In this document: positions 4,904-52,674 of the stretch, piece after piece
How positions within the stretch are numbered: position 1 is the first letter of the stretch
Layout: every line of letters starts with the position of its first letter
Assembly (NCBI RefSeq): GCF_000165485.1
Contig: NC_014623.1
Span: forward strand, 4,235,501 to 4,299,500
Direction: 5' to 3'
DNA length: 64,000 nt
From: Stigmatella aurantiaca DW4/3-1
Lineage (GTDB): Bacteria > Myxococcota > Myxococcia > Myxococcales > Myxococcaceae
The notes under the pieces: generated by a model
Seen by the model: only the letters and a program-made list of their open reading frames with translations
Database searches by the model: none
What the model was told of the DNA's origin: nothing
Made by a program: the position numbers and the translations under genes

Positions 4904-4958
4904 GTCCTTTTGACTCGGCAGGCGCGGAGTCGAATTGACCGCCGGCGGTCAAGATGAC
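4904..4958. promoter_or_regulatory. Three NorR enhancer sites (GT-N7-AC)
   Basis: Three 11-base elements match the NorR consensus GTCA-N3-TGAC: GTCCTTTTGAC (4904-4914), GTCGAATTGAC (4929-4939) and GTCAAGATGAC (4948-4958, perfect). All three keep the TGAC half. Counted from the predicted hmp start they centre near -74, -99 and -118, suitable for an enhancer-bound activator. Sites 2 and 3 face each other and together form an 18-bp perfect palindrome, TTGACCGCCGGCGGTCAA (4935-4952). Site 3 covers the norR start codon, so bound NorR could also repress its own gene. Confidence 0.8.
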
Positions 4959-6501: not shown

Positions 6502-9213
6502 GCGCCCAGAGCCAGGGCTGTCTCGCGGCCGGGGAGCCGGTAGACGCAAGGGGGTATTCCGGCCCATGGCGATGAAAGGGGCCCAGTAGTGGGGGTGGGG
6601 TTGGGTCAGCCGCAGCTCGCGCATCGCCTCACGCAATGCCGTGGCGCGGCCCTGTCCGGCCAGCAGGGCGCGGTAGTAGGCCTCCATCAAGGTGCGTGTC
6701 GTCTCATCATTCACCGTCCAGAGGCTCATCACGACGGTCTCCGCCCCCGCCACGACGAACGCCCGGCGCAGTCCATACACGCCTTGTCCGAGCTTGACGT
6801 CGCCTCGGCCGGTGTCACAGGCGGAGAGCACGACCAGCTGTGTGCCCCAGAGATCCAGCCCTGCCAGTTCCAAGGCTGTCACCCAGGCGATGCCGAGAGG
6901 GGGCAACGGAGTGCCGGACGAGGGGGCGGCTTGCGTCTTCCTCTCCACGAGGAGGAGCCCGGAGCGAAGCAGGGGATCGGGAGCGTGGTGGGCGGGAGAG
7001 CGTTCGTCCAAGGCACCGAAGTGGCCCACGGCGCGGGAGTCCTCGGGGAGGGGCACATCCTCGAGGAAGAAGCCGTGGGTCGCGATGTGGAGGACCGCGG
7101 GGGTGGGCATGTGGAGCAGCCGCTGCTTGGTGGCCTCGGGGCCGAGAAAGACCTGCGCCGCGGGGAGCAGGCGCTGAATGGCCTGGGCCTCCTGGCGAGT
7201 TCCTGGCAGGGGCACCCAGGGGCGCTCCGCCAGTTCGGCGCGGGGCGTGTAGAAGAAACGCTCAGCGGCAAGGGAACGTGGGACCAACGGAAGCGCGTCC
7301 TCTGGGAAGGAGGGCAGCGTTGGGAAGGGAGCACGGAAATCCGGGTCCGCCAGGACGACCACCTCGCCGTGGGAAGTCTCCGCCTGGGAGCGTGGCAAGA
7401 GGTCCTTGCCGGACGTGAGATAGATGAAGTCGTAGGCGTCGATGAGGAATTGCCGGCCATCGTGAAGGGCGGCAAAGGGAACGAGACCGAGCTGCCCATC
7501 GGGCGAGAGGAAGAGCCGGTGGGGATCGCCGGGCAGCGGCAGCAGAGGCTGAAAGGCCAAGCGGTAGAGCGTCTGCGCGGAGGCAAGGAAGGCGGCATCG
7601 CGGCGAGCCAGGGCATCCCGTAGGCCCGAGGCGGCCCGGTCGATGGGCTCGGCGGGTCCGAGGTCGAGCGCGCGGATGTGGGCGTTGGGCAGGAGCACCA
7701 GCGCCAGGTAGCGCGGGTGAGGCGCGGTCTCTGGCCTGGGCGTGCCGGGCTTCACGAGCAGGGAGCGCTCTGTGTAGGCAATGAACTCAACGAGGGCGCC
7801 GTCCTGGGGGAGGGTCATGGCGACCTGATGGACAATCTTGGAGAGCGCGGGGAGTGCCGTGAGCGCGCGCAAGGGGGCGGAGCGCTGGGCGAGATCGGCT
7901 TCGAGGGCATCGTCCTGGACCGCGAGCGCGTCGAGGCGTTGTTGATAGTCCTCCACGGGGTACGCGCGGGGGCCTTGGAGGACCAGTGTGGCGAGCTGGC
8001 TGCGCAGTTCCCGGAGCTGCTCGAAGATGCGCCGGTCCAAGGGGCCCAGGCTGCGGTAGACGGCGTGAGAGGTATTGGCCAGCTCTCCGGCAGAGCGGCC
8101 TTTGAGCAGGAGCACGACGCTCAGGACCAGGCGCCGCACGTCTTCGTTTTCAGGGTAGGCCCGCAGGAGGGAATAGAGCAGTTCCTCGTCGGCGCGCAGT
8201 TGTTCCAGGAATCGGGTCAGGCGGGCCTCGGAGAAGGAAAGCGCCTCCTGCCGCAAACGCCGCTCGGAGATGGAGAAGGCCTGGGTGAAGAGGGATACGG
8301 CATCTGCGAGGCGGTGCTGGGCCACGTGGAATTGGGCGAGGTTGTTGAGGGTGGGGACCATGTTGGGATGGTTCTGGCTGAAGGCCGATTCCCAGATGGT
8401 GCGCGCGCGCTGGAGCAGCGGCTCGGCCCGGGTGTAGAACCCCTGCGCGTCATAGAGGCTGGCGAGGTTATTGAGCGAGGCGGCCACGTCGGGGTGGCCC
8501 TTGCCCAGCGCCGCTTCTCGAATCTTGAGCGCGCGCGCATAGAGCGGCTCGGCCCGGCGGTACAACCCTTGGGAGTAGTAGAGGTTGGCCAGGTTGTTGA
8601 GCGATTGGGCGACGTGGGGGTGGTTTTTCCCCAGGGCTTCTTCCCAGATCGCGAGCGCGCGTTGATGCAGCGATTCGGCTTGGGCTGGCACTCTCTGGGC
8701 GTAATAGAGGTTGGCCAGGTTGTTGAGCGAGGCGGCCACATCGGGATGGTGCTGGCCGAGAAGCCCCTCCCGGATCGCGAGCGCGCGCAGGTAGAGCGGC
8801 TCGGCCTGAGCATACGACGCCTGGGCGTAATAGAGGTTGGCGAGGTTGGTGAGTGACGCGGCGACGTCGGGATCACTCTGGCCCAGAACCTCCTCCCGGA
8901 GGGCAAGGGCACGCTGGTGCAACGGCTCCGCCTCGACGAACTCCCCTTGAAGGCCGTGAAGAATGCCCAGCAAGTCCAGCGAATTGGCAACGGCTGGATC
9001 GCCGCTGCCGTCGAGCACCGACTCCGCCAGCGCGAGGGCTTGTTCGCCTTGCGTCAAGGCGGCGCCATACTGTCCTGCCTCGTAGAGAGCGATCGCCTTG
9101 TCGTAGGCCGCTTGCGCTTCCATCAGTGGATGCTGGGGCTCTCTTTCACCCGAGACTGCTTCCGCCGTGTGGCAGAGGAGGGCGACCATCATCCATGTGA
9201 AGGCCTGTCTCAT
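6430..9213 (-). CDS. Secreted TPR-CHAT (caspase-like) protein
   Basis: A 927-residue protein with a cleavable signal peptide (MRQAFTWMMVALLCHTAEA), about six 42-residue Kinesin-light-chain-type TPR repeats (residues about 30-300; repeated ASLNNLANLYYAQ and AEPLYLRALAIRE units) and a C-terminal CHAT domain (about 560-905). The caspase-like dyad is intact: H713 in HIATHGFF and C799 in LSACDTG. CHAT proteins are clan CD peptidases; some act in bacterial defence (the gRAMP/Craspase partner), but most TPR-CHAT proteins have no known substrate. Here the signal peptide argues for an exported enzyme. The C-terminus runs 72 bases into norR. No obvious partner gene is adjacent. Confidence 0.88.
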   Translation of the reverse strand: MRQAFTWMMVALLCHTAEAVSGEREPQHPLMEAQAAYDKAIALYEAGQYGAALTQGEQALALAESVLDGSGDPAVANSLDLLGILHGLQGEFVEAEPLHQRALALREEVLGQSDPDVAASLTNLANLYYAQASYAQAEPLYLRALAIREGLLGQHHPDVAASLNNLANLYYAQRVPAQAESLHQRALAIWEEALGKNHPHVAQSLNNLANLYYSQGLYRRAEPLYARALKIREAALGKGHPDVAASLNNLASLYDAQGFYTRAEPLLQRARTIWESAFSQNHPNMVPTLNNLAQFHVAQHRLADAVSLFTQAFSISERRLRQEALSFSEARLTRFLEQLRADEELLYSLLRAYPENEDVRRLVLSVVLLLKGRSAGELANTSHAVYRSLGPLDRRIFEQLRELRSQLATLVLQGPRAYPVEDYQQRLDALAVQDDALEADLAQRSAPLRALTALPALSKIVHQVAMTLPQDGALVEFIAYTERSLLVKPGTPRPETAPHPRYLALVLLPNAHIRALDLGPAEPIDRAASGLRDALARRDAAFLASAQTLYRLAFQPLLPLPGDPHRLFLSPDGQLGLVPFAALHDGRQFLIDAYDFIYLTSGKDLLPRSQAETSHGEVVVLADPDFRAPFPTLPSFPEDALPLVPRSLAAERFFYTPRAELAERPWVPLPGTRQEAQAIQRLLPAAQVFLGPEATKQRLLHMPTPAVLHIATHGFFLEDVPLPEDSRAVGHFGALDERSPAHHAPDPLLRSGLLLVERKTQAAPSSGTPLPPLGIAWVTALELAGLDLWGTQLVVLSACDTGRGDVKLGQGVYGLRRAFVVAGAETVVMSLWTVNDETTRTLMEAYYRALLAGQGRATALREAMRELRLTQPHPHYWAPFIAMGRNTPLRLPAPRPRDSPGSGRSLQSQTSGQPPEIGAIHPQLAGR

Positions 9214-11700: not shown

Positions 11701-12111
11701 ATGAACGATACGCTGAAGGAGCGCTTGGGGCTTTTTGGCCAGCATGGGTATGACCGGTCCCTGGTGGGGATGGAGGTGCTGGAGGCGGAGGGTGGGCGGG
11801 CCCGGGCGCGTCTGCCCGTGGGCGAGCCGGTGCAGAACCTCGGTGGGGCATTGCACGGTGGGGCGGTGGCGACCTTGGTGGATGTGGTGGGGACGCTGGC
11901 CATCATGACCGCGGACCGGGAGGGGCGTCCCGGGGTGTCCACGGATCTCAACGTGTCCTGGTTCTCTCCGGCGCCGGGGGACTCCACCGTGCTGGTGGAG
12001 GCCACGGTGCTCAAGTCGGGGCGCACCCTGGCCTTCGTTCAGGTGGACATCCGCCGCGAGAAGGATGGCGTGCTGGTGGCCCAGGGCCGGATGACGAAGT
12101 TCTTGAGCTGA
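11701..12111 (+). CDS. PaaI-family hotdog thioesterase
   Basis: A 136-residue hotdog-fold acyl-CoA thioesterase. The HGG motif at residues 52-54 (GALHGGAVATLVD) is the hallmark of the PaaI/YigI group, which hydrolyse aryl- or acyl-CoA esters, and the C-terminal strand LAFVQVDIRREKDGVLVAQG completes the fold. It ends 7 bases before the metallophosphoesterase gene, so the two are probably cotranscribed although no functional link is obvious. The acyl substrate is unknown. Confidence 0.9.
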   Translation: MNDTLKERLGLFGQHGYDRSLVGMEVLEAEGGRARARLPVGEPVQNLGGALHGGAVATLVDVVGTLAIMTADREGRPGVSTDLNVSWFSPAPGDSTVLVEATVLKSGRTLAFVQVDIRREKDGVLVAQGRMTKFLS

Positions 12112-12118
12112 GCGAGAG

Positions 12119-13303
12119 ATGCTCCTGGGAAGACTCGTTTTTGTCGCGGTGCTGAGCCTGTTGGGGTTCGTCCTCCTGCGCTGGTTGTGGCCAGGCCTGG
12201 TGAAGGGGGGACGCAAGTGGGTGTACCTCGCCCTGGTGGTGCTGTCCCTGGCGGCCTACCTCCTGCCGAGGGCCCTCGGGCTCGGCGCGCATGGGGAGAT
12301 TCCGTTCATCGGCGAGCCGCTGAAGCTCCTGTCCACCGTGTGGGGCGTCACGGTGCTCATCATGGTGGTGGCGGGACTGCCCGTCGTGTTTCTGCGCTGG
12401 GTGCGCGAGCGCCGCCGGGTGGATCCACCCGAGGGCGCCGACGTGAGCCTGGAGCGCAGGGATCTGCTGGTGAACGCAGGGCGCGCCGTGCCCCTGCTGG
12501 CCCTGGGGACGAGCGCCGCCGGGGTGGTGAACGGCATGTCGGGCTTCGTGGTTCGCGAAGTGGAAGTCCGGATGCGCAACTTGCCGCCGGCCCTGGAGGG
12601 CTTCCGCATCGGTCAAATCACGGATGTGCACGTGGGGCCCTTCATCACCCCGGAGTACCTGCGCGGGGCGGTGGAGGCAATGAACGCGGCGGGCGCTCAC
12701 GTGCAGGTGATGACGGGGGACTTGATCGATGATCTCACCCAGCTCGACGAGACGATGGAGGCGCTCGCGGGGTGCCGCGCGCCGCACGGCATGCTGGCGG
12801 TGCTTGGAAACCATGAGCACTTCCGGGGCCTGAACGCCGTTCTGAGGGGGTACGCGTCCCTCCAGAAGCGAGGTGCTCCGGTCCGGCTGCTCGTGGACTC
12901 GGCGCATGTGTTCGAGCACGAGGGGCAGCGGGTGCGGGTGGTGGGGGTGGACTACCCGCTGGGCCGGGGCATGGGGGCGCGCACCTCGCTCATGCAGGCC
13001 TCGGCGGAGAAGGCGTTCCAGGGCACGTCGCCGGAGGAGCTGGTGCTCTGCTTGACGCACCACCCGTCGTTCTTTCCCTACGCCGTCGAGCGGGGCGCCC
13101 GGCTCACGCTGGCGGGCCACACGCACGGCGGGCAGGTCGCCTTCTTTGGCATGCCATTGTTCTGGTTCGTCTTCGAGTTCATGTTCGGCGGATACCGGCG
13201 CAAGGACGGCTATCTGTACGTCTCGGGGGGAACGGGGCACTGGCTTCCGTTCCGGCTTGGGATTCCTCCGGAGGTGACGGTCCTCACGCTGCGGGGCACC
13301 TGA
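12119..13303 (+). CDS. Membrane-anchored metallophosphoesterase
   Basis: A 394-residue calcineurin-like phosphoesterase with three N-terminal membrane helices (about 3-22, 33-52, 73-93), a linker carrying an Arg-Arg motif (LERRDLLVNAGRA, 111-123) that resembles an internal Tat-type signal, and a catalytic domain from about 145. The metal-binding blocks are complete: D169-x-H171, GD at 200-201, GNHE at 230-233, an HH pair in LTHHPS and a late GHTHGG. This architecture matches the YkuE/YaeI group, proposed to act on lipids or phosphoesters at the outer face of the membrane. Substrate unknown. Confidence 0.88.
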   Translation: MLLGRLVFVAVLSLLGFVLLRWLWPGLVKGGRKWVYLALVVLSLAAYLLPRALGLGAHGEIPFIGEPLKLLSTVWGVTVLIMVVAGLPVVFLRWVRERRRVDPPEGADVSLERRDLLVNAGRAVPLLALGTSAAGVVNGMSGFVVREVEVRMRNLPPALEGFRIGQITDVHVGPFITPEYLRGAVEAMNAAGAHVQVMTGDLIDDLTQLDETMEALAGCRAPHGMLAVLGNHEHFRGLNAVLRGYASLQKRGAPVRLLVDSAHVFEHEGQRVRVVGVDYPLGRGMGARTSLMQASAEKAFQGTSPEELVLCLTHHPSFFPYAVERGARLTLAGHTHGGQVAFFGMPLFWFVFEFMFGGYRRKDGYLYVSGGTGHWLPFRLGIPPEVTVLTLRGT

Positions 13304-26920: not shown

Positions 26921-27052
26921 GGAGACACCTCGGAGGTTCCCAGTCTACAGGGGAGTATCCACTCGTGAACGTCAGCGCAGATCCGGGCGGGCGGGATGCT
27001 TATCTCCGCAGAGGCCCTCCCTCGCTCTGGATGTGGCCCAGGAGGGTGGGAC

Positions 27053-28441
27053 ATGGCGCGCGGAGTTCATGTGAGAGGAGGACCTGTGGGCTTGCTCCTC
27101 GGGCTGCTCGTGGCGGGCTCCGCCGCGGCGCTGGAAGAGGCCGCGGTGGATCGGGCGCTCCAGTTCTCCCAGCAGCAGCTGGCCCGGATGGCCGCGCAAC
27201 TGGAGGTAGGCCAGTACCCCAAGAGCACCCTCGCCGATGGGACGATCCGCACGACGCCCGCCACGGACATGACCGGTTGGACCCAGGGGTTCTTCCCCGG
27301 AGAGCTCTGGCTCCTGTACGGGCTGACGGGAGCCCCCTCCTGGAAGGCGCTCGCCGAGGACTGGACGCGCGCCCTGGAAGTCCAACGGGGAAACACCCAG
27401 ACGCACGATCTGGGCTTCAAGTTCATCCCCAGCTATGGCCACGCGTACCGGCTGACGGGCGATCCGTACTACCGGGACATCCTGTTGGAGGCCGCTGCTT
27501 CCCTGGCCACCCGCTATGACAAAAAGGTGGGGGTCATCAACACGTGTGATTGGAACTCGGACTGGCACCTGCCGACCGTCATCGACACGATGATGAACCT
27601 GGAGCTGCTCTTCTGGGCCGCGAACAACGGAGGGCCGGCCGAGTGGAAGGACATGGCGCTCCACCATGCGTTGCGCACCCTGGAGGATCTCGTCCGCCCG
27701 GATGGCAGCACCTTCCACGTCGTGGACTACGATCCAGTGTCAGGCGCCATTCTCTCGAAGGAGACGTACCAGGGGTATGCGGATGGCTCCACCTGGTCAC
27801 GAGGACAAGCGTGGGCCCTGTACGGCTTCACCATGACTTACCGGTACACCCTGGATCCGCGCATGCTGGCGGCCGCCCGGAAGGTGACCGATGCCTTTTT
27901 GAGCCGGTTGTCCGGGGACTTCGTGGCCAACTGGGACTTCGACGCGCCAGAGCAGCGCAAGGACTCGTCGTCGTCGGCCGCCGCGGCCGCCGCGCTGCTG
28001 GAGCTTCACCTCTACGAGACGGATCCCGTCCAGCGCGAGCGTTACCGGTCCGCCGCTGTCCGCATGCTGGAGAGCCTCACCTCCCCGGCGTATCTGGCCG
28101 CTGGGACGAGCAGTGCCGGCATCCTGCTGCACGGCGTTGGCCATCTGCCCGCGGGCCACGAGGTGGACGTGGGCCTTGTCTATGGGGACTACTACTTCAT
28201 CGAGGCGCTGACGCGGTACCGGCAGTTGCCGCGCGAGGGTGGAGGCGAGCCCACGCCCGAGGTGCCTCCGGAAGAAACGCCTCCCGAGGAAGAGGCGCCT
28301 CGGGAGCAGCAGCCTGGGGCGCTTGATCGCACCGCCGGAGGCTGCGGCGCGGCCCCAGGCGCGGCGGGGGCCGCCTGGGGAGTGCTGCTGCTGGCGGTGC
28401 TCCTGGGCGCACGCCGTGCCCAAGAAGGGCGAGGGGGATGA
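27053..28441 (+). CDS. GH88 unsaturated glucuronyl hydrolase with MYXO-CTERM tail
   Basis: A 462-residue exported glycoside hydrolase of family 88, which removes unsaturated uronic acid from oligosaccharides made by polysaccharide lyases. Signal peptide LLLGLLVAGSAAA; (alpha/alpha)6-barrel marks include GWTQGFFPGELWLLY, DLGFKFIPSYG, TCDWNSDWHLPTVIDTMMN (the conserved Asp), GSTWSRGQAWALYG and NWDFDAP. After a Pro/Glu-rich linker (about 405-425) the protein ends with a MYXO-CTERM type signal: a GGCGAAPG cysteine motif, a hydrophobic helix and an ARR basic end, so it should be surface anchored. ATG 27053 has GGAGG at 7 bases; upstream starts lack one. Confidence 0.87.
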   Translation: MARGVHVRGGPVGLLLGLLVAGSAAALEEAAVDRALQFSQQQLARMAAQLEVGQYPKSTLADGTIRTTPATDMTGWTQGFFPGELWLLYGLTGAPSWKALAEDWTRALEVQRGNTQTHDLGFKFIPSYGHAYRLTGDPYYRDILLEAAASLATRYDKKVGVINTCDWNSDWHLPTVIDTMMNLELLFWAANNGGPAEWKDMALHHALRTLEDLVRPDGSTFHVVDYDPVSGAILSKETYQGYADGSTWSRGQAWALYGFTMTYRYTLDPRMLAAARKVTDAFLSRLSGDFVANWDFDAPEQRKDSSSSAAAAAALLELHLYETDPVQRERYRSAAVRMLESLTSPAYLAAGTSSAGILLHGVGHLPAGHEVDVGLVYGDYYFIEALTRYRQLPREGGGEPTPEVPPEETPPEEEAPREQQPGALDRTAGGCGAAPGAAGAAWGVLLLAVLLGARRAQEGRGG

Positions 28442-28451
28442 CGCCGGTGCC

Positions 28452-31400
28452 TCAGTGGGAGCGCGTCTGAGGCGGTGAGACCCGGGCCGCGCCGAGCCCC
28501 GTGAGAGGGGACGCCTTCAGGTTCTCCACCTGGGTACACAGCACCTGAAGGATCTGCTCGGTGAGTTTCGCCAGGGCGCTCAGCTGCTCGCCATCGGCCG
28601 TGCGGCCATGCCAGAGCAGTTGGGCCTGCTCCGCGGACAGTCGGGCCTCCACACGCAGGGGGATGGCGCCTGTTCCAGGCCAGGGCCCGTCATCGAAAAT
28701 GGCCAGGGTGCGCAGCGTCCCTCGGCTGGACGGAGCGCCCTCGTCCTCCAGGTGCAGACCGAAGTCCGGCGCCGGCAGGGCGACGAGTGCATCGGCGAGC
28801 GAGCGGTCCTCTCCGTAGGTCCTCAGGCCTTCGTAGGCCAGTCCGGCCAGGGGGGCCTCCAGGAGCTGGAGGTGGATGCGGCGCGCCAGCTTCTCCGGGG
28901 CTGTGCCGGGCTCCAGGGACAAGAGGGCCGGGAACGCATAGTGGAGGTTGCCCAGCATGCGCGAGGTATCCACCCGGTAGAGGTTGGTTCCACGCGCGCT
29001 CTGCTCCAGGCTGACCCGGATCGAGGAGCGCTGGGCATGCGTGCCAAAGGCGAGCGCACACGCTGTCAGCAGCACTGCCTCCCGGGAGACGTCGAGCAGG
29101 GTGGCCGCCCGCTGGAGCGCGGACGCATCCACGGTGGCTTGTGCGCTGGGGGCGGGGGCTCCCGAGGCGCTGAGCGTGGGGGGCGCCGCCTCGTGCGGCG
29201 AGGAGGGCTCGAGCCAGTGCGCGCGAGCCTCCTGGACGGTCCGAGGGAGCCGGACCTCGGTGGTGAGCTGCTGGGCCCATCCCGCCAGGGAGCCGCTCTG
29301 GGGCGCCAGCCGCACGCGCCCTCGAAGCCGGGCCTGCTCGCAGGCATCCGCGAGGTCCGAGGCGAGGATCCGCCACGAAGACTCATCCATGAGGGAGGGG
29401 TGGCAGATCGCCATGAGCCACGGGGCCGCCCCGTCCCCCCGGGCGCAGAAGACGAACGTGGCCAGCGCTCCGCCACACCGGCCCACCTCGGCGCCCAGCT
29501 TCCGGGCCATGGCCTCCACGGTGGGCCAGCACTCCACGTCCGTCCGGGACGAGAGATCAATCCGCGTCAGGGGAACCGGCTCCTTCTCGGGAGCGATGAG
29601 GGCGGCCCACCCCGACTGCCCCTCGGGCCCCTGCCGTGTGTAGCGCAGGCGCAGCGGCTCGTGGGCGGCCCACACGGCGTGGAGCGCCTCTTCGGCGTGC
29701 AAGGCTTCGGTGCCAGCGGGAAGCTCGAAGACCCGGCAGGCGCCGGTACGGCCCTGAAGGCCGCGCGCGGGATCATGAACCGCGTACAGCGCGGGGGTCA
29801 GGGGCACCAGCCCCTGGGAGGCATTCCAGGCCGCCTCCCGCGGCGGGGTCTGGGTCTCGGACGGAGCGGTGCGGGGAGCCTCTTCGTCCTGAGCCTGGGT
29901 CAGCGGCTTGAGGCCGGAGGCCTGGTGGAGCGCGCGTGTGGCGGTGCGGGAGACACGGCCCGTGGAGGACCGGGGAAGGGAGTAGGCCCGCACCAGCACG
30001 ATGGCGTGGGGCGTCACCCCATGGCGCAGGTTCACGCGCCGGTGGATGGCCTCGGTGATGTCCTGAAGACGCTTTCGCGAGTCCGCGGGGGCCAGCTCCG
30101 GCTCGGAGGGGAGCACCTCGGCGATCAGCGTGAGCTCCTCGTTCCGCCCTTGCTTGGCGGCGACCGCCACGCAGCTGCCGGGGAGCAGCGCCGGGTGGCT
30201 GGACTCCACGTCGAACTCCAGATCCTGGAGCCGCAGATCCTGGCCCTGCCAGATGATGACATCCCGGAGCCGTCCCGTGACGTACAGGTCTCCGCCCACG
30301 CAAGCCCCGAGATCTCCCGTGCGCAGGAAGGCGCGTCCCGCGGAGGCCGAGCCCGTCAGCCGTCCCCGGAAGACCTCCTCCGTGGTGCCTACCCGGCCCC
30401 AGTACCCATCCGCCACACTCAGACCGGAGACCCAGATTTCGCCAATCTCCTGATCGCTGCGCACCGCGCGCGTGATGGGATCCACGATGAGCACCTGGAC
30501 GCTCGCCGCCGGACCGCTGCTGACCAGCTTCGTGGCCGCTCCCGGCCGCTCGGTGATGCGCTGCTGGGACAGCGCGTCCACGGCCACCCCGCGCACGGTG
30601 GGACCGGCGTCGGACTTGCAACTGGAGATCAGAAAAGTGGATTCCGCCAGGCCGTACAGCGGGCGGAAAGCCTTGGACTGGAACCCGCACGGGCCAAAGT
30701 GCTCCGCGAAGCGCTCCAGCGTCTCGGCCCGGATCTGCTCGGTCCCGGAGAAGGCCACGCGCCAGCGGCTCAGGTCCAGCTTGGCCCGGTCCGCCTCGCT
30801 CACCGTGCGGACACAGAGCTCATAGGCGAAGTTCGGGGCGCCGCTGACCGTCGCGCCATGGGTGGAGAGGGCCTCCAGCCATCGGCCCGGCCGCTGGAAG
30901 AAGAGCTGCGGCGGCATGAGGACGCAATGGACGCCCGCGTACAAGGGCTGGAGCACCCCCTCGAGCAGCCCCAGGCCCTGGTGGGTGGGCAGCCAAAGGA
31001 GGATTTTATCGGTGAAGGTATGCCCCAGCGAGCGGCGCAGCGCCTCGCAGTTGTCCAGGAGGTTGGCGTGCGTGACCCGCACCCCCTTGGGGGCGCCCAG
31101 GGTGCCCGCCGTGTACTGGAGAAACGCGATGGCGCGCGTGTCCACCACCGGGGGATGCCAGTCGGAGGGAGGATCGCCCTGGATGGCCTCGGCGGCGATC
31201 AGATCGATGTGGCCCGCAAGCCCTTCGATGGTGAGCCGTTGGCCTTCGGCGGGCCGCTGACCGGCGACGAGTGCGGCGGCGGCCCCGGAATCCATGGCCA
31301 GGGTGGCCATCTGCCCCGGCCCTGAGAGGGGGGGGCTGAACAGCGGCGAGGGAACGGGGACGGCGATCGCACCCGCATAGAGGCAGCCGAAGAAGCTGGC

Positions 31401-31670
31401 CACGGAGGCGGGGCCCGGGGGAAGGGAGACGAGGACGCGCTGGCCGGACAGCCCGCGCCCTCCCAGCTCCGCCGCGATGGCCCGGGCCCGCTGATCCAGC
31501 TCGGCGTACGTGAGGGTCGTGTCCTCGGAGGGCTGGGGGCCCAGGAAGGTGAACGCGGGGGCTTGGCCCTGGTCTGCTGCCCGGCGACGGAGGATGTCCG
31601 CGAAGGTTCGCGCCTCCTTCCAAACGAGGCGGGCCCCGCCGCTGGCCGGGGAGTGTGCGTGTTCTTTCAC
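28452..31670 (-). CDS. FAAL-like adenylation domain fused to a condensation-like domain, motifs degenerate
   Basis: A 1072-residue cytoplasmic protein. Residues about 15-600 align with fatty acyl-AMP ligases (RTFADILRRRA, WLPTHQGLGLLEGVLQPLYAG, FLRTGDLGACVGGDLYVTGR). Residues about 630-1060 resemble an NRPS condensation domain (TPALYAVHDPARG, SWRILASDLADA, MLGNLHYAFPALLSL). Key catalytic positions differ: the His-Asp of YHDMGL is Q231-G232; the core A3 motif is TAGTLGAPKG; the A10 lysine is R572 (SSTGRVSR); and HHxxxDG of the condensation half is H757-P758-SLM-D762-E763. No carrier domain is attached. The frame is intact, so a scaffolding, regulatory or divergent enzymatic role is possible. 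GTG start at 31670; no better start is seen. Confidence 0.8.
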   Translation of the reverse strand: MKEHAHSPASGGARLVWKEARTFADILRRRAADQGQAPAFTFLGPQPSEDTTLTYAELDQRARAIAAELGGRGLSGQRVLVSLPPGPASVASFFGCLYAGAIAVPVPSPLFSPPLSGPGQMATLAMDSGAAAALVAGQRPAEGQRLTIEGLAGHIDLIAAEAIQGDPPSDWHPPVVDTRAIAFLQYTAGTLGAPKGVRVTHANLLDNCEALRRSLGHTFTDKILLWLPTHQGLGLLEGVLQPLYAGVHCVLMPPQLFFQRPGRWLEALSTHGATVSGAPNFAYELCVRTVSEADRAKLDLSRWRVAFSGTEQIRAETLERFAEHFGPCGFQSKAFRPLYGLAESTFLISSCKSDAGPTVRGVAVDALSQQRITERPGAATKLVSSGPAASVQVLIVDPITRAVRSDQEIGEIWVSGLSVADGYWGRVGTTEEVFRGRLTGSASAGRAFLRTGDLGACVGGDLYVTGRLRDVIIWQGQDLRLQDLEFDVESSHPALLPGSCVAVAAKQGRNEELTLIAEVLPSEPELAPADSRKRLQDITEAIHRRVNLRHGVTPHAIVLVRAYSLPRSSTGRVSRTATRALHQASGLKPLTQAQDEEAPRTAPSETQTPPREAAWNASQGLVPLTPALYAVHDPARGLQGRTGACRVFELPAGTEALHAEEALHAVWAAHEPLRLRYTRQGPEGQSGWAALIAPEKEPVPLTRIDLSSRTDVECWPTVEAMARKLGAEVGRCGGALATFVFCARGDGAAPWLMAICHPSLMDESSWRILASDLADACEQARLRGRVRLAPQSGSLAGWAQQLTTEVRLPRTVQEARAHWLEPSSPHEAAPPTLSASGAPAPSAQATVDASALQRAATLLDVSREAVLLTACALAFGTHAQRSSIRVSLEQSARGTNLYRVDTSRMLGNLHYAFPALLSLEPGTAPEKLARRIHLQLLEAPLAGLAYEGLRTYGEDRSLADALVALPAPDFGLHLEDEGAPSSRGTLRTLAIFDDGPWPGTGAIPLRVEARLSAEQAQLLWHGRTADGEQLSALAKLTEQILQVLCTQVENLKASPLTGLGAARVSPPQTRSH

Positions 31671-32132
31671 GGCGTCCCGTCACCTAAATTCAAGAGGAGC
31701 CCGGAGCGCGAGAGCCCGGACCTGACATCCGAGGATCTATCGAAGAACGGGGACCTGTCCATCGCTTGGAAGTGCAACGGAAAAATCCAACAATGACGCC
31801 TCCTTAAGCATGAACGGCCTCACGCTCCGTGAATGCCTCCGGCGGGCGTTTAGGCCTTGCCGGTGCAGGAAAAGCCCCTCCTGCGCGTCACCCAGCGGTG
31901 TGTTGACGCTCCCAGGCCTTTCCCCTAGGGTGCGCGCCGCTCTTCGGGTGGGGTCTGGCATCCGGGAAGTCGCGGCCGTCCCCCCGCACCTTCCTCCTCT
32001 TGAGGCATTCGTTTTTCCAGGCTCGGTTGCCTGGGAAACGGCAAGGGGCTGGAGGCTCAGCGGTGCTTGCCTGCCCTGGTGACTCCGCGACGCTTACGGC
32101 CAGCCGGCCTTCTGGTGTAGGGATACTGCCGC
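31671..32132 (+). promoter_or_regulatory. 462-bp divergent intergenic region with a sigma-70-type promoter for wzm
   Basis: No coding sequence is supported here. TTGACG (31903-31908), a 17-base spacer and TAGGGT (31926-31931) form a good housekeeping-type promoter on the plus strand about 200 bases before wzm, leaving a long leader. The leader contains the inverted repeat CCAGGC (32018-32023)/GCCTGG (32029-32034) and no recognised riboswitch. The left part, upstream of the FAAL-like gene on the minus strand, shows no clear promoter. Confidence 0.55.
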
Positions 32133-32912
32133 ATGTTGCGTAACCTCCGAGAGCTTTACCAATACCGGGGCCTGCTGCTGAGCCTGACGCAGCGGGAACT
32201 GAAGGCACGGTACCGCGGGTCGGTCCTCGGGTTTCTGTGGACGTTCCTCAACCCGATGCTGCAGATGGTCGTCTACACGCTGCTGTTCTCGGTCTACATG
32301 CGTCAGCAGATCGAGCACTACCCGTACTTCATGTTCGTCGGCCTGCTGCCATGGATCTGGTTCTCCAGCTCCATCGGGGCGGGGGCCAGCGCGATCAGCG
32401 ACCGGAGGGATCTGCTCACCAAGGTGCGTTTTCCGGCCCAGGTGCTGCCGGCCACCGTGGTGGTCACCAACCTGTGCAACTTCCTGCTCTCGGTCCCGCT
32501 GCTCATCGTCTTCGGGCTCGTCCTGGGCCGCTGGCCCTCGTGGCACCTGCTCTTCTTCCCTGTGATTGTCCTCATCCAGTTTTGCGTGACGATGGGGCTC
32601 GCCTACCTCATCTCCGCCATCAACGTGACGTTCCGGGACCTGCAGCAGATCGTCGCCAACCTGCTGACGATGTGGTTCTTCGTCACGCCCATCTTCTACC
32701 GGACGTCGACCGTGCCGGATCAGTTCCGGGAGCTGGTGGTCCTCGCCAATCCCATGGCGGTGATGGTCACCTCGTACCAGGCCATCTTCTATGATCACCA
32801 GATGCCCGCCCCGGGGCCGCTGCTGCTGTGGATGGGGATCGCGATCGTGCTCATGGTCGTGGCGTCCAGCATCTTCGAACGGCGGCGCGAGGAGTTCGCG
32901 GAGGTCATTTGA
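32133..32912 (+). CDS. wzm: O-antigen/polysaccharide ABC transporter permease
   Basis: A 259-residue ABC-2 type permease with six membrane helices, the membrane half of the exporter that moves undecaprenyl-linked O-polysaccharide across the inner membrane. Characteristic Wzm features are the N-terminal RELKARYRGSVLGFLWTFLNPM amphipathic helix and the LLTKVRFPAQVLP loop. It overlaps or abuts wzt and matches the wzm-wzt-glycosyltransferase order of the Myxococcus sas O-antigen locus. Confidence 0.93.
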   Translation: MLRNLRELYQYRGLLLSLTQRELKARYRGSVLGFLWTFLNPMLQMVVYTLLFSVYMRQQIEHYPYFMFVGLLPWIWFSSSIGAGASAISDRRDLLTKVRFPAQVLPATVVVTNLCNFLLSVPLLIVFGLVLGRWPSWHLLFFPVIVLIQFCVTMGLAYLISAINVTFRDLQQIVANLLTMWFFVTPIFYRTSTVPDQFRELVVLANPMAVMVTSYQAIFYDHQMPAPGPLLLWMGIAIVLMVVASSIFERRREEFAEVI

Positions 32913-32917
32913 GCCCA

Positions 32918-34234
32918 ATGCGCACCATGGACGCCATCGTCATCCGCAATCTCGTCAAGAGCTTCCGAAAGAGCACCGTCCGGCGCGAATACACGACCAT
33001 CAAGTCGGAGCTGGTGCGGTGGTTGATGCGCCGGAAGGAGCGGGGCGAGAAGACCTCCATTGAGGCGCTGCGCGGAATCGATTTGGTCATCCCCCGGGGC
33101 AAGACGGTGGGAATCCTGGGGCGCAATGGCTCCGGCAAGAGCACGCTGCTCAAGCTGATGACGGGCATCTACGCGCCCACCTCGGGGAGCATCGAGATCA
33201 ACGGACGGGTCTCCGCGCTGCTGGATCTCGGGGCGGGGTTCCACCCGGACTTCTCGGGCCGGGAGAACATCCTCATCAACGGCATCATCCTGGGCATGTC
33301 CCGGGCCGAGGTCCGCGCGAGGATGGATGACATCATCGCCTTCAGCGAGCTGGGGGACTTCGTCGACGAGCCGGTGCGCACGTACTCGAGCGGCATGTAC
33401 ATGCGGCTGGCGTTCTCCGTGGCCACCCACGTGGATCCGGACATCCTCATCGTCGACGAGATTCTCGCCGTGGGGGACGAGCACTTCGGCAAGAAGAGCC
33501 TGGCGAAGATGATGGAGTTCAAGAAGGCCGGTAAGACCATCGTCCTCGTGACGCATGACATGGGGACCATCGAGCGGTGGTGTGACACGGCCGCGTGGCT
33601 CGATGCGGGGCGCATTCGCCGCGTCGGCACGCCGGAGGAAGTCGTTCAGGACTATCGCCGCGCCGTGGCCCTGGCCGAGGAGCAATCCAAGGTGATGGTC
33701 CCCGCCGCCATCGCCGCCGATGGCGGCGCCCTGCCCACGCTGGAGGCTTCGAAGGAAGCGGAGTCCTCCGCCGAGCCTGTGCTGAAGATCGCCGCCGTGC
33801 GCCTCACCGGCCGAGAAGGCGCGGAGGCGAAGCAGGTGGACACCGAAGAGGGGCTCTCGTTCCACGTGGACTTCACGGCATTCCGGCTCGTGGAGGACGT
33901 GGACTTCGTCGTCGCGCTCCGGCGGGCGGATGGCTTGCTCGTGTATCAGACGAGCACCGTGGCCGAGGCGCTTCACCTGCCCCTGCCGCTGGCCAAGAAG
34001 GGCTCGTTGGTGTTGCTCATCGAGCGGATGGGGTTGACGGCCGGCGACTACACCTTTGACGTCTCCGCGCGCTCCCGTTCGGGGGAGTGCTATGACGTGC
34101 GTCGCGGCGTCTGCCCGTTCACGGTGCGCTCGGCCATCTCGGATGAGGGCGTCGCGCGGCCGCTGCACCGCTGGCGTGTGGAGAGTGAGGGCGCCGCCAG
34201 GCTCGAGCTTTTGCCGAGGTGGGTTGGCTCGTGA
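32918..34234 (+). CDS. wzt: O-antigen ABC transporter ATP-binding protein with polysaccharide-recognition domain
   Basis: A 438-residue protein. The nucleotide-binding domain (about 5-250) has Walker A GRNGSGKST (68-76), the signature YSSGMYMRLAF and Walker B ILIVDEILAVGD. The C-terminal extension (about 280-430), with VLKIAAVRLTGREG and LSFHVDFTAFRLVEDVDFVVAL, matches the Wzt carbohydrate-binding beta-sandwich that recognises the finished chain end. ATG 32918 is used; a TTG at 32909 is possible. Works with Wzm. Confidence 0.93.
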   Translation: MRTMDAIVIRNLVKSFRKSTVRREYTTIKSELVRWLMRRKERGEKTSIEALRGIDLVIPRGKTVGILGRNGSGKSTLLKLMTGIYAPTSGSIEINGRVSALLDLGAGFHPDFSGRENILINGIILGMSRAEVRARMDDIIAFSELGDFVDEPVRTYSSGMYMRLAFSVATHVDPDILIVDEILAVGDEHFGKKSLAKMMEFKKAGKTIVLVTHDMGTIERWCDTAAWLDAGRIRRVGTPEEVVQDYRRAVALAEEQSKVMVPAAIAADGGALPTLEASKEAESSAEPVLKIAAVRLTGREGAEAKQVDTEEGLSFHVDFTAFRLVEDVDFVVALRRADGLLVYQTSTVAEALHLPLPLAKKGSLVLLIERMGLTAGDYTFDVSARSRSGECYDVRRGVCPFTVRSAISDEGVARPLHRWRVESEGAARLELLPRWVGS

Positions 34235-41978: not shown

Positions 41979-42002
41979 CCTCAGTTGCCGGAGCGAGCCG
42001 CC

Positions 42003-42914
42003 ATGCGTTTTGTCGTCACGGGTTCCAATGGTCTGGTGGGCAGCCGCGTCTGCGCGCTGCTGGAGAAGGCAGGCCATGAGGTGGTGGGGCTTGGGCGGGG
42101 CGCGCGGCGCACGGGCGGCGCCCACCGCTACATCCCGGTGGACCTCACCCTGGAAGCGGACGTTCTCACCGCCATCGAGTCCGCGGCCCCCGAGGCCATC
42201 ATCCATCCGGCGTCCATGACGGAGGTGGATGCCTGTGAGCGGGCCCCCGAATTGGCCTACGCCGCCAACGTCACCGCGGCCATGGCCGTGGCGAAGGGCG
42301 CGCGCAAGGTGGGAGCCCACCTGGTGCACGTCTCCACGGACTATGTCTTCGACGGGGACCAGGGGCCTTACGATGAGGAGGCCCGCGCCAACCCGAGGGG
42401 CGTCTATGCCCTCACCAAGCACATGGGCGAGCAGGCCGCGAAGTCGTTCGTGCCCGGATGCGCCATTGCCCGCACGGCCGTGGTGTACGGGTGGCCTCCC
42501 GCGGGCCGCCCCAACTTCGGCGCCTGGCTGGTGGGCGCCCTGGAGAAGCAGCAGACCGTCAAGCTCTTCGAGGACCAGTTCGTCTCGCCGAGCCTCGCCG
42601 ACAGCGTGGCGGCGATGCTGGTGGAACTGGGCGAGCGCAAGCTGGGCGGTCTCTGGAATACCTGTGGCGGCGAGGTGATGAACCGCGTCTCCTTTGGCCG
42701 TGCCCTGTGCGAGGTGTTCGGGTTTGATCAAAACCTTCTCGTGCCCTCGCGCATGGCGGATTTGAAGTTGCCCAGCCCTCGGCCGCTGCACAGCGGACTG
42801 AAGGCGGACAAGGCAAGGGCCCAGCTCGTGGCGAAGCCTCTTGCGCTCACCGAGTCATTGCAGCGGTTTCATGCGGCGTGGAAGGCCGGAACCACGCCTG
42901 TTCGAGGTGCATGA
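42003..42914 (+). CDS. rfbD: dTDP-4-dehydrorhamnose reductase-like protein
   Basis: A 303-residue RmlD-like reductase, proposed to make dTDP-L-rhamnose by the last NAD(P)H-dependent step. Features: [51 protein letters not shown] (the RmlD signature), [15 protein letters not shown] (YxxxK) and ARTAVVYGW. It is somewhat divergent from enterobacterial RfbD, so a related sugar-nucleotide reductase is possible, but the operon context supports rfbD. ATG 42003. Confidence 0.86.
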
Positions 42915-43795
42915 TGAAGGGGATTGTTCTCGCCGGCGGTTCAGGCACGCGCCTGTACCCGCTGACGCGCGTCGTCAGCAAACAGCTTCTGCCCGTCTAC
43001 GACAAGCCGATGATCTACTACCCGGTCACCACGCTGATGCTGGCGGGGATCCGGGAGATTCTCATCATCTCCACGCCCTCGGATCTGCCGCGCTTCCGGG
43101 AACTGCTGGGCACGGGAGAGCAGTGGGGGGTGCGCTTCGAGTACGCGGAGCAGCCTCGGCCGGATGGGTTGGCGCAGGCGTTCGTGATTGGCCGGCAGTT
43201 CGTGGGCAACGAGCCCGTGTGCCTCATCCTGGGAGACAACATCTTCTACGGCCACGGCTTCACCGACATGTTGCAGCGGGCGGGGAAGCGGGGCCAGGGC
43301 GCCACGGTGTTCGGCTACTACGTGAAGGATCCGGAGCGCTATGGCGTGGTGGAGCTGGATGCGGCCAACCGCGCGGTGAGCATCGAGGAGAAGCCGGCCA
43401 AGCCCAAGTCCAACTACGCCGTCACGGGCCTGTACTTCTACGACAACCAGGTGCTGGACATCGCCGCGCAGCTCAAGCCGTCCAAGCGCGGGGAGTATGA
43501 AATCACCGACGTGAACGCGGAGTACCTGCGGCGAGGCCAGCTCCAGGTGGAGCTGATGGGCCGCGGCTATGCGTGGTTGGACACGGGGACCCACGAGTCG
43601 CTGATGCAGGCCTCCAACTACATCGAGATCATCGAGCGCCGGCAGGGGCTCAAGGTGGCCTGCCCCGAGGAGATCGCCTACCGCATGGCCTACATCACCG
43701 CCGCGCAGGTGGCCGCGCTGGCGGAGCCCATGCGCAAGAACGAGTACGGCCAGTACCTGCTGGCGCTCCTGGACAACAAGGGGGCGGTGTCGTGA
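42911..43795 (+). CDS. rfbA: Glucose-1-phosphate thymidylyltransferase
   Basis: A 294-residue nucleotidyltransferase making dTDP-glucose from dTTP and glucose-1-phosphate. It begins [19 protein letters not shown], the nucleotide loop, followed by [32 protein letters not shown]-type [20 protein letters not shown] and [11 protein letters not shown], all standard for RmlA. ATG 42911 overlaps the rfbD stop (ATGATGA); 42914 is the alternative. Confidence 0.97.
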
Positions 43796-44346
43796 AGGTC
43801 CTAGAGACGGCCATTCCCGGGGTGCTCCTCATCGAGCCCAAGGTCTTTGGAGATGACCGGGGCTTCTTCCTGGAGACGTTCCACGCGAAGCGCTACGCGG
43901 ACGCGGGCATTCCCGGCCCCTTCGTGCAGGACAACTACTCGCGCTCGGCCAGGGGGACGTTGCGAGGGCTTCACTTTCAGGAGCCCCAGGCCCAGGGCAA
44001 GTTGGTCCAGGTGGTGGCCGGGGCGGTGTACGACGTGGCGGTGGATGTCCGCCGGGGGTCTCCCACATTTGGCAAGTGGGTGGGCGTGGAGCTGTCCGCG
44101 GAGAACCGGCGCCAGCTCTGGGTTCCTCCGGGCTTCGCCCATGGCTTCTGCGTCACCTCGGAGTTTGCGGACTTCCAGTACAAGTGCACCGCCCTCTATG
44201 CGCCAGAGAACGAGCGGTCCATCCTTTGGAATGATCCGGAGCTGGCCATTCCCTGGCCGCTCTCTGGAGCGCCGAAGCTGTCCGCCAAGGATGCCGCGGC
44301 GCCGCGTCTGAAGGACGCGCCCCTGCTCCCCGCCTACGAGGGGTAA
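43792..44346 (+). CDS. rfbC: dTDP-4-dehydrorhamnose 3,5-epimerase
   Basis: A 184-residue RmlC cupin-fold epimerase. The conserved parts are [38 protein letters not shown] (catalytic His), [35 protein letters not shown] and [20 protein letters not shown]. The GTG start overlaps the rfbA stop by 4 bases. Closes the dTDP-L-rhamnose operon. Confidence 0.96.
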
Positions 44347-49954: not shown

Positions 49955-51709
49955 GTGAGCGACATGCCCTCTCCCTCCGTCGAGCCAGAGGCCCTCGCCG
50001 TGTGGCAGCAGGGGCTGACGGTGGGCCGCTACAGCCTGCTGACGCGGCTGGCAGTGGGCGGCATGGCGGAGATCTGGCTCGCACGCCAGGTGGGGCCCAA
50101 GGGGTTCGAGAAGTTCATCGTCATCAAGCGCATCCTGGATGGGCTGGGCACGGAGCCCGAGTTCGTGGGGATGTTCCTCGACGAGGCGAGGCTGGCCGCG
50201 CAGCTCAACCACCCGAACATCGTTCAGATCTTCGATCTGGGAGAAGAAGCGGGGGCCTTCTACATCGCCATGGAGTACCTGCCGGGTGAGAACCTGGCCT
50301 CCCTGGTGAGGACCGGCATGCGCCAGGGCCGGCCGCTGCCCATCCCTTTCGCGGTCCGCATCATCGCGAGCGCTGCCGAGGGGCTGGCCTACGCGCACGC
50401 CAAGACGGGACCGGATGGCGCGTTGCTCGGCATCGTCCACCGGGATGTGTCCCCTCAGAACCTCCTGGTGACGTACGACGGGGTGGTGAAGGTCCTGGAC
50501 TTTGGCATCGCCAAGGCCGCCACGCGGGAGAGTCAGACCCTGGCGGGCCAGGTCAAGGGCAAGGCGTCCTACATGTCGCCCGAGCAGGCGCGTGGGCAGT
50601 CCCTGGATGCGCGCAGCGACATCTTCTCCTTGGGGGTCATCCTCTTCGAGATGGTGACGCAATCGCGGCTCTTCAAGTTCGCCGAGCCGCTGGCCGCACT
50701 GCAAGCGGTGGCCAGCGAGGAGCCGCTCCCGCTGGCGCACGAGCGCAACCCCGAGGTTCCCGAGGCCTTGGGCCTCATCATTGCCCAAGCGCTCACGCGT
50801 CAACCCGGCCAGCGCTATCCCTCGGCGCGCCACTTCCAGAGTGCGTTGGAAGAATGGCTGCGGGGCCAGAGCGAGGCGACAGGCTCCGCCGAACTCGCCA
50901 GCTACATGTCGCAGGTCTTTGGCGAGCGCATCCAGGAGCGCGCCCGCTTGCTCGATGCCGCCCGCTCCGGAGAGATGACCGCATCGTCGGCCCGGAGGGT
51001 GGCCGCGCGCAACTCCTCGGTGAACACGCTCCCGGAATCCGCGCCACAGGCCGAGGAAGAGACCACGTTGGAGCAGCCGTGGCTCCAGCGCCGCCGGCTG
51101 CACCTCGTCGGCGCCGCGGCGGTGGTGCTCGCCGTGGGAGCCGGAGGCGGGGTGGCCCTGCTGACGGCGCGTCAGATGCCTCCCGAGCCCGTGGCCGCTC
51201 CCACGCCGCCGTCCCCACCGGTGCTCACCATCGAGACGGACCCCCCCGGGGCTCGGCTCATGGTGGATGGCAAGGACGTGGGTCGCGCGCCCTTGCGTCT
51301 CGACACACTCCCTCTGGGCGAGCACAAGGTGGCGGCCTCGCTGGAGGGCAGGGTGACCACGGAGCGCCAGGTGAAGCTGGCTCACCCGGGAGAGCGGGCC
51401 ATGGTGGTGCTGTCGCTGGCCGCCGTGCCGGTCCCTCCGGCCGCGGAGCCAACGGCCCCGCAGAAGGAGGAGCCCGCCGCTCCGCCCCGGGCGTCGAAGC
51501 GTGCCCCGGGCCGGTTGACCTTGGACACCACGCCTTGGACCCATGTCTTTCTGCGAGGGCGAAAGCTGGGGGATACACCGCTCATTGATCAGTCCCTGCC
51601 CGTGGGGCGGCACCAGCTCAAGCTCGTCAACGAGTCGAAGAACATCTCCACCGTCATCGAAGTGGAGATCCGCTCCGGCCAGAGCACGGTGAAGAAGCTT
51701 CGGCTCTGA
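49955..51709 (+). CDS. Hanks-type Ser/Thr protein kinase with PEGA repeats
   Basis: A 584-residue kinase. Catalytic residues are all present: K58 in FIVIKRI, E78, HRD at 162-164 in VHRDVSPQNLL, DFG at 182-184 and the APE-like MSPEQARG. A single membrane helix (about 385-405; HLVGAAAVVLAVGAGGGVALL) precedes two PEGA carbohydrate-binding-like repeats (PVLTIETDPPGARLMVDGKD and GRLTLDTTPWTHVFLRGRKL) at the C-terminus, so the kinase is inside and the PEGA part outside. The GTG at 49955 is chosen; ATG 49964 and TTG 49919 are alternatives. Its stop overlaps the next start (TGATG type), coupling it to the LpxR-like gene. Confidence 0.9.
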   Translation: MSDMPSPSVEPEALAVWQQGLTVGRYSLLTRLAVGGMAEIWLARQVGPKGFEKFIVIKRILDGLGTEPEFVGMFLDEARLAAQLNHPNIVQIFDLGEEAGAFYIAMEYLPGENLASLVRTGMRQGRPLPIPFAVRIIASAAEGLAYAHAKTGPDGALLGIVHRDVSPQNLLVTYDGVVKVLDFGIAKAATRESQTLAGQVKGKASYMSPEQARGQSLDARSDIFSLGVILFEMVTQSRLFKFAEPLAALQAVASEEPLPLAHERNPEVPEALGLIIAQALTRQPGQRYPSARHFQSALEEWLRGQSEATGSAELASYMSQVFGERIQERARLLDAARSGEMTASSARRVAARNSSVNTLPESAPQAEEETTLEQPWLQRRRLHLVGAAAVVLAVGAGGGVALLTARQMPPEPVAAPTPPSPPVLTIETDPPGARLMVDGKDVGRAPLRLDTLPLGEHKVAASLEGRVTTERQVKLAHPGERAMVVLSLAAVPVPPAAEPTAPQKEEPAAPPRASKRAPGRLTLDTTPWTHVFLRGRKLGDTPLIDQSLPVGRHQLKLVNESKNISTVIEVEIRSGQSTVKKLRL

Positions 51710-52674
51710 TGCGACAGTGGCTTCTGTGGGTCATGGTGTTGGCGCATGCCCCGGCGGAGGCGTCGCTGGGCACGTGGACCCTTCAAACAGACAATGATCT
51801 CTACGTCTCGAGCCGGGACCGGCACTACACCAACGGCCTTCAACTGGCCTGGACCTCGGCGGCGGATGCGGCGCCCGGCTGGATGATGCGGCTGGCCCGC
51901 CTCTCGGGCAATGAGCCGGACTCGTGGGTGCACTGGACACTGGCGCTCGGGCAGAACATCTACACGCCCGCTGGGGTGGCGCTGCGTGCGCGCCGCTACC
52001 GGGACCGTCCCTACGGCGGGTGGCTGTATGGCTCCTGGGGGCTGGTTCGCGCTTCGCCCGAGGGGTTCGATGCCGCCACGCTTCACCTCGGAATGGTGGG
52101 GCAGGCTTCCCTGGCGGAGCCCTCTCAGCAACTGCTCCACCGCGTCCTGGGCATGAGGCCGCCCCGGGGATGGGACAAGCAACTGCGAAACGAGCCGGGA
52201 GTGGCCTTGCTGCTCACCCGTCAGCTCCGCCTGGTGCGCCCCCCGGCCGAGGACCGGGCGGGGTTCGAGCTGGCCGTGCATGGCACCGCGTGCCTGGGCA
52301 ACGTGTTCACGTACGGAGGGGGCGGCGTGGGGGTTCGCTGGGGAAAGGGGCTGGCGCGCGACCTCGGTCATGCGCGCATCTCCCCCGGCCTGCCGGGGGC
52401 CAGCACCTTCGAGCGCCGTGAGGGGTGGGCCTGGTCCCTCTTCGTGGGAAGCGAGGCCCGCCTGGTGGCGCGCAACCTCTTCCTGGATGGCAATACCTTC
52501 TCCGACAGCGCCAGCGTGCCCCGGAAGGTGTTGGTGGCGGACGTCGAGGCGGGCGCGAGCCTCACGTACCAGAACGTCCGGCTGACCTACGCCTATGTGG
52601 TTCGCAGCGAGGAATTCACCGGCCAGAAAGGGGCGGATATCTTCGGCTCCATCCGTCTGGCGTTCATCCCCTGA
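51709..52674 (+). CDS. LpxR-family outer-membrane lipid A deacylase
   Basis: A 321-residue outer-membrane beta-barrel of the LpxR/DUF2219 family with a signal peptide (MRQWLLWVMVLAHAPAEA). The opening TLQTDNDLYVSSRDRHYTNGL is the family signature: the N-D pair (N29-D30) and the Y-T-N-G motif. LpxR enzymes remove the 3'-acyloxyacyl chain from lipid A at the outer leaflet. The strong alternation and the final aromatic-poor strand (GSIRLAFIP) fit a barrel, although the last residue is Pro rather than Phe. The ATG overlaps the kinase stop, so the two are cotranslated. Confidence 0.85.
   Translation: MRQWLLWVMVLAHAPAEASLGTWTLQTDNDLYVSSRDRHYTNGLQLAWTSAADAAPGWMMRLARLSGNEPDSWVHWTLALGQNIYTPAGVALRARRYRDRPYGGWLYGSWGLVRASPEGFDAATLHLGMVGQASLAEPSQQLLHRVLGMRPPRGWDKQLRNEPGVALLLTRQLRLVRPPAEDRAGFELAVHGTACLGNVFTYGGGGVGVRWGKGLARDLGHARISPGLPGASTFERREGWAWSLFVGSEARLVARNLFLDGNTFSDSASVPRKVLVADVEAGASLTYQNVRLTYAYVVRSEEFTGQKGADIFGSIRLAFIP

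Follow-up and report, generated by a model that had tools for sequence, protein, structure and literature searches.

A single gene of Stigmatella aurantiaca DW4/3-1 joins a FAAL half to an NRPS epimerization-type (E-type) half, and the catalytic residues of both halves are lost across its orthologues under purifying selection on the sequence, the combination by which a pseudoenzyme is recognised. We consider it fairly probable that the product is a lineage-specific, neofunctionalised double pseudoenzyme, acting by binding as an adaptor or a ligand-responsive regulator. A preliminary description of the locus had argued for selected retention and not decay, which is supported here by the shared substitutions, the low dN/dS and a conserved upstream element.

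The gene was analysed within a 64,000-nucleotide stretch of DNA (the window) from a host genome that consists of one contig of 10,260,756 bases. As had been described, its reading frame of 1072 codons is intact in the window, with no frameshift. AGGTGA precedes the GTG start codon, and the same GTG is the alignment start in seven of the eight orthologues. All residues cited in the preliminary description were found at the positions given there (T187-A-G-T-L-G192, H230-Q231-G232-L-G, R572 and H757-P758-S-L-M-D762-E763). Pfam assigned AMP-binding to residues 27-424 (2.1e-57) and Condensation to residues 659-953 of the fusion protein. No carrier protein was found within the protein or among the ~55 window ORFs scanned against Pfam, and for the same ORFs the reported absence of carrier, PKS and NRPS genes from the window holds. 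The gene and its main parts are as follows.

28452..31670, (-) strand: FAAL-E fusion gene, 1072 aa, GTG start at 31670, TGA stop
30273..31613, (-) strand: FAAL N-terminal core, residues 20-466 (Pfam AMP-binding, 2.1e-57; 7r7g, 5e-116; Foldseek)
29931..30272, (-) strand: FAAL C-terminal (lid) subdomain, residues 467-580, diverging somewhat faster than the core
29805..29915, (-) strand: variable linker, residues 586-622, with no carrier protein
28512..29804, (-) strand: E-type (epimerization) C-superfamily domain by sequence, residues 623-1053; Pfam Condensation in 8/8 orthologues

The FAAL half aligned end to end with solved FAALs, the top match being the Synechococcus olefin-synthase FAAL 7r7g, and its best PDB matches were all FAALs, as expected of an ANL fold with FAAL-type sequence. 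Its best NCBIfam matches were FAAL models, at scores below the cut-offs of those models, and a Foldseek search with a predicted model of medium confidence likewise returned FAALs as best matches. Identity was 36% to 7r7g (Foldseek) and about 42-43% to the nearest myxobacterial FAALs. The HMMER alignment to 7r7g placed Q231-G232 opposite the His-Asp of YHDMGL, as the preliminary description had claimed, and R572 opposite the A10 lysine, with the aligned pairs YHDMGL/HQGLGL, TSGSTG/TAGTLG and, for A10, SGKIRR/TGRVSR. The motifs of this half are listed here.

31083..31115, (-) strand: A3 (P-loop), YTAGTLGAPKG, residues 186-196, from the orthologue alignment
30957..30995, (-) strand: A4 motif WLPTHQGLGLLEG, residues 226-238, from orthologue and FAAL alignments
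30633..30659, (-) strand: A5 motif LYGLAESTF, residues 338-346; Glu343 kept, the remainder relaxed
30516..30608, (-) strand: FAAL-specific insertion position, residues 355-385, placed by its position after A5 and not by structure
30309..30326, (-) strand: A7, LRTGDL, residues 449-454, kept
30216..30275, (-) strand: A8, GRLRDVIIWQGQDLRLQDLE, residues 466-485; Arg467 and Asp470 kept, RGxN lost
29940..29981, (-) strand: A10, SLPRSSTGRVSRTA, residues 564-577; Lys replaced by Arg572 (His in one orthologue)

The QG pair of A4 is present in all eight orthologues, in which HQGLG is invariant. The serine of A3 is Ala188 in 8/8 and positions 190-193 vary; the TAGTLG noted earlier is present in this protein as a local state that is not fixed among orthologues, the distant ones reading TAGSTG, TAGNNG or TAGSTA, and Ala188 is the sole constant deviation from TSGSTG. 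At A10 the reported replacement of lysine by R572 stands, with arginine in seven orthologues and histidine in the remaining one. A further loss, absent from the preliminary description, is that of RGxN in A8, which reads QGQD/E in the orthologues (EGMD in one) and is missing from all eight. The nucleotide-site framework residues A5 Glu343, A7 Asp453 and A8 Arg467/Asp470 are kept, which makes binding of a nucleotide or an acyl-adenylate conceivable, and A3 Lys195 is kept as well.

For comparison, 31 other FAALs were inspected, nine of them paralogues in the same genome and 22 from elsewhere in the order. HDMG, RGxN and the A10 lysine were retained in 31/31 of these versus 0/8 orthologues, indicating that the losses exceed chance. 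The nearest multidomain FAALs run from FAAL through an ACP/carrier (GLDSL) to a C domain; the fusion has no carrier in cis, nor is there an adjacent one among the window genes scanned.

The second half had been labelled a condensation domain, and this label was not upheld. An LCL/DCL condensation identity was rejected, as both the profile and the motifs place the domain nearest to E domains. A profile built from the eight second halves and searched against the PDB was led by the E-type chains of bacitracin synthase 3, TycA, TycB and GrsA, and the best solved-structure matches were mostly E domains (9rde, 2xhg, 6ta8, 9bfg and 5isw). The second half contains a SWRIL block and a VDxSRMLGNxxYxFP block, the latter matching VDLSRTVGWFTSLYP. 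HHLVVDxVSWRILLEDL and VDLSRTVGWFTSLYP are marks of epimerization domains, and both occur in the NRPSs of the order that matched best. The E-subtype assignment is one of sequence, as the predicted fold of this half had no confidence. Three motifs were located.

29364..29402, (-) strand: His motif HPSLMDESSWRIL, residues 757-769; Pro758 (for the second His) and Glu763 invariant in the eight orthologues
28992..29006, (-) strand: EQSAR, the counterpart of E-domain EGHGR, residues 889-893; Glu889 kept in 7/8
28929..28973, (-) strand: VDTSRMLGNLHYAFP, residues 900-914, the counterpart of the E motif VDLSRTVGWFTSLYP

The residues H757-P758-SLM-D762-E763, described earlier as standing in place of HHxxxDG, were found as reported, and across the orthologues the motif reads HPxLxDE(S/T)SW, that is, HPxxxDE for the HHxxxD of E domains (8/8). 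Together with the second His, the E half has lost the Gly-His-Gly of EGHGR, which reads EQSAR (RQSAR in one orthologue) and had gone unremarked in the preliminary description, and the Trp-Phe of GWF, which has become GNL. The first His757, Asp762, Arg904 and Gly907 are kept. In C domains the second His of the motif is held to be essential (PMC1894796). From the motifs of both halves, the fusion protein is predicted neither to form acyl-AMP nor to catalyse epimerisation.

When the whole protein was searched against 96 genomes of its family, eight full-length matches were returned, at 100, 94, 88, 88, 68, 68, 67 and 67% identity; seven come from its genus, in which every genome searched has one, and the eighth from the single genome of a second genus. 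When the second half served alone as query, the next match reached only 31% and lay in large NRPS frames. Across the order (145 genomes), the FAALs that ranked next were at ~43% with E-values near 1e-132, versus effectively 0 for the orthologues, and among 195 genomes of the phylum the same eight alone reached 1e-35 with the second half. As far as sampled, the fusion appears to be confined to two genera of soil myxobacteria. HQGLG, HPxxxDE and the losses of the A10 lysine and RGxN are common to all eight orthologues in both genera. The case in which orthologues are intact and this copy alone is mutated was checked and not seen; decay of a single copy was rejected on the shared substitutions and on dN/dS well below 1 in both halves.

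No FAAL-E fusion with intact motifs that could serve as an ancestor was present among the best matches from the 145 order and 195 phylum genomes; the nearest FAALs inspected were FAAL-ACP-C or shorter, and viral contigs yielded FAALs and no E half. In trees, each half of the orthologues formed a single clade with full support on a long stem (1.28 changes per column for the FAAL half, at least 2.02 for the E half). Because of these stems, the trees point to no parent gene, including the parent NRPS of the E half. Two NRPSs in this genome start with a FAAL and have an E domain at their opposite end, and internal deletion of such a FAAL-to-E NRPS gene is one possible origin of the fusion. In the part of the literature covered, no report was found that deals with this gene, with a FAAL-E fusion or with the joint retirement of two such domains.

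Pairwise dN/dS among the orthologues (Nei-Gojobori) spanned 0.08-0.33 for the FAAL core, 0.14-0.72 for the lid region and 0.10-0.47 for the second half, and rose to 1.8 in the fast-evolving linker of about 37 residues between the two halves. Purifying selection acts on both halves, and the frame is open in 8/8 genomes at identities down to 67%. The median ratio of lid to core divergence was 1.53 in the orthologues versus 1.09 in active FAALs of similar divergence, but in phylogenetically independent pairs the ranges overlapped (1.08-1.61 versus 0.74-1.50), so that a faster divergence of the lid relative to the core is at most suggested and would be modest. Compared with active FAALs, A3 and A5 are relaxed, the substituted A4 (HQGLG) is constrained and A7 is nearly invariant. 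The largest gain in conservation was at residues ~355-385 (0.96 versus 0.49 in active FAALs), where the ratio of divergence to that of the core was 0.27-0.84 for the orthologues and, for active FAALs, mostly exceeded 1. The FAAL-specific insertion has been described as having no sequence conservation in FAALs (PMC8460268). In the fusion protein, residues ~355-385 may form a new interface, and the conservation patterns lean towards a protein that probably serves in binding or as a scaffold.

Upstream of the gene lies a conserved noncoding element.

31757..31788, (-) strand: conserved noncoding block GGATTTTTCCGTTGnnnTTCCAAGnGATGGAC, 32 bp, ~87 bp upstream of the fusion gene

The block was found exactly and once per genome in 8/8 genomes with the fusion gene, and in 0/88 family genomes without it when searched at up to three mismatches. 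It is a probable promoter or operator of the fusion gene. Searches for an Rfam family and for a sigma-70 site in it found neither, and a candidate sigma-54 site was dropped as its GG-GC spacing was off by one and its GC was not conserved.

On the other side of this element are two export genes.

32133..32912, (+) strand: wzm, O-antigen ABC export permease, the divergent neighbour in 8/8 genomes
32927..34234, (+) strand: wzt, O-antigen ABC export ATPase with Wzt_C, start inferred, adjoining wzm in 7/8 genomes

The fusion gene had been described as divergent from an O-antigen export locus; this is borne out as linkage only, wzm being adjacent in all eight genomes across 206-462 bp of intergenic DNA, with an opposite flank that differs. 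The fixed linkage may reflect no more than an inherited gene order. In the second genus wzm is present twice: a lone copy adjoins the fusion gene and the other lies elsewhere with wzt (loci L064 (G042:C8), 11843-12622, and L071 (G042:C28)); an inverted RND efflux operon follows the lone copy. No FAAL-related gene was found at the wzm locus of other genera in the loci read, and in most of these genera a PgsA-like gene occupies the corresponding place.

Other genes of the window were recorded. Beside the fusion gene, at 26996-28441 (+), is a gene for a GH88-like protein whose C-terminal end has a proline/glutamate-rich stretch and a hydrophobic, anchor-like tail; its presence there is conserved in close relatives only. 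The genes rmlD, rmlA and rmlC (dTDP-rhamnose) lie downstream in the O-antigen region (41985-44346, (+)), and the same window holds an LpxR family gene at 51709-52674 (+) (Pfam 4.7e-92), a family whose characterised members are lipid A 3'-O-deacylases. A 927-aa TPR-CHAT protein (caspase-like family) is encoded at 6430-9213 (-), adjoined by the gene for a sigma-54 activator with a GAF domain at 4954-6501 (+).

In the pseudoenzyme model that we favour, the fusion would have brought together an ordinary FAAL with an epimerization-type domain of the NRPS kind and no carrier protein, and the residues of the two active sites would have been replaced before the eight sampled species diverged, with the two domains and some of the nucleotide-site framework retained. 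The working surface would include the segment after A5 (residues ~355-385, the FAAL-specific insertion position) together with the E half, and the beneficiary would be either the cell envelope/polysaccharide export of the neighbouring genes or carrier proteins of other pathways. A narrower proposal, in which the FAAL-E double pseudoenzyme has an acyl-adenylate, a lipid or a carrier protein as its ligand and serves ABC-dependent O-antigen export as a regulator or scaffold, is rather improbable in our estimation; if true, it would amount to an envelope regulator made from assembly-line domains.

A specific version of the binding model, for which we see some room while doubting it, would make the protein a docking factor for the carrier proteins of NRPS/PKS lines encoded at other loci of the genome, in which the dead domains keep their surfaces for binding carriers or tailoring enzymes. 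Both parent domain types naturally recognise carrier proteins, and there are many FAAL/NRPS genes in this genome. The X domain of glycopeptide NRPSs, which has Arg for the second His and is thought to be inactive (PMC1894796), would be the precedent for such a role. However, the window holds no NRPS/PKS or carrier gene, and in 8/8 genomes the fusion gene is linked to wzm and not to a biosynthetic cluster.

It is unlikely, in our view, that the protein has remained an enzyme and changed its chemistry. In such a case Arg572 would take the place of the A10 lysine, and either Glu889 or His230, which directly precedes the canonical His position, would act in a new reaction, for instance the transfer of an acyl group to an O-antigen pathway glycan or lipid. 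Arginine can sometimes substitute partly for lysine, and residual or altered adenylation is possible given the A5, A7 and A8 nucleotide residues that are kept along with A3 Lys195; the strict invariance of HQGLG is as expected of a new active site, and glycan export genes adjoin. These points are countered by the histidine at A10 in one orthologue, a P-loop that varies (TLG/STG/NNG/STA), the relaxed lid subdomain and A5 motif, the change of Glu889 to Arg in one orthologue, and the lack of a carrier in cis. Slow pseudogene decay of an NRPS fragment, which would account for the lost catalytic residues, some motif relaxation and the fast linker, is hardly credible given that the eight genomes, diverged to 67% identity, show no stop or frameshift, that dN/dS is far below 1, that the substituted motifs are invariant and that the upstream element is conserved.

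Each half of the double pseudoenzyme has precedents, as single dead FAAL-like or C-type domains are already known. A dead fusion of two domains, long kept, would show that assembly-line domains can be converted wholesale into a binding protein, and with eight orthologues, defined substitutions and one gene it would be a clean test case for the conversion of ANL and C-superfamily domains into regulators. Its distinguishing traits are the missing carrier, the restriction to one bacterial clade, an upstream element of its own and a fixed envelope-export neighbour.

Compared with bacterial FAALs (the olefin-synthase FAAL 7r7g, LpFAAL 3kxw, and FadD32 and relatives), the FAAL half is similar over its full length and keeps the A5, A7 and A8 framework residues, but differs in the change of A4 HD to QG, the loss of A8 RGxN and the A10 lysine, the change of the A3 serine to alanine, and the absence of an ACP or other carrier after it. 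Similarly, the E half shares SWRIL, VDxSR-G--FP, D762 and R904 with the NRPS epimerization domains of TycA (2xhg), TycB (6ta8) and GrsA (5isw), whereas its second His is Pro, EGHGR is EQSAR, GWF is GNL, and no carrier protein precedes it. Like the X domain (PMC1894796), it is a C-superfamily domain with the second His replaced; the X domain, however, is part of an NRPS and groups with the LCL condensation domains, while the E half is E-type, outside an NRPS and fused to a FAAL. Another parallel to the FAAL half is FLD2 of eukaryotic DIP2, a FAAL-like domain with degenerate adenylation motifs for which a new function is presumed (PMC9342972). In FLD2 the A5 and A7 motifs are degenerate, whereas the fusion protein keeps the key residues of A5 and A7 and has lost those of A4, A8 and A10; and FLD2 is fused to an active FLD1, whereas the partner domain in the fusion protein is itself without its catalytic residues.
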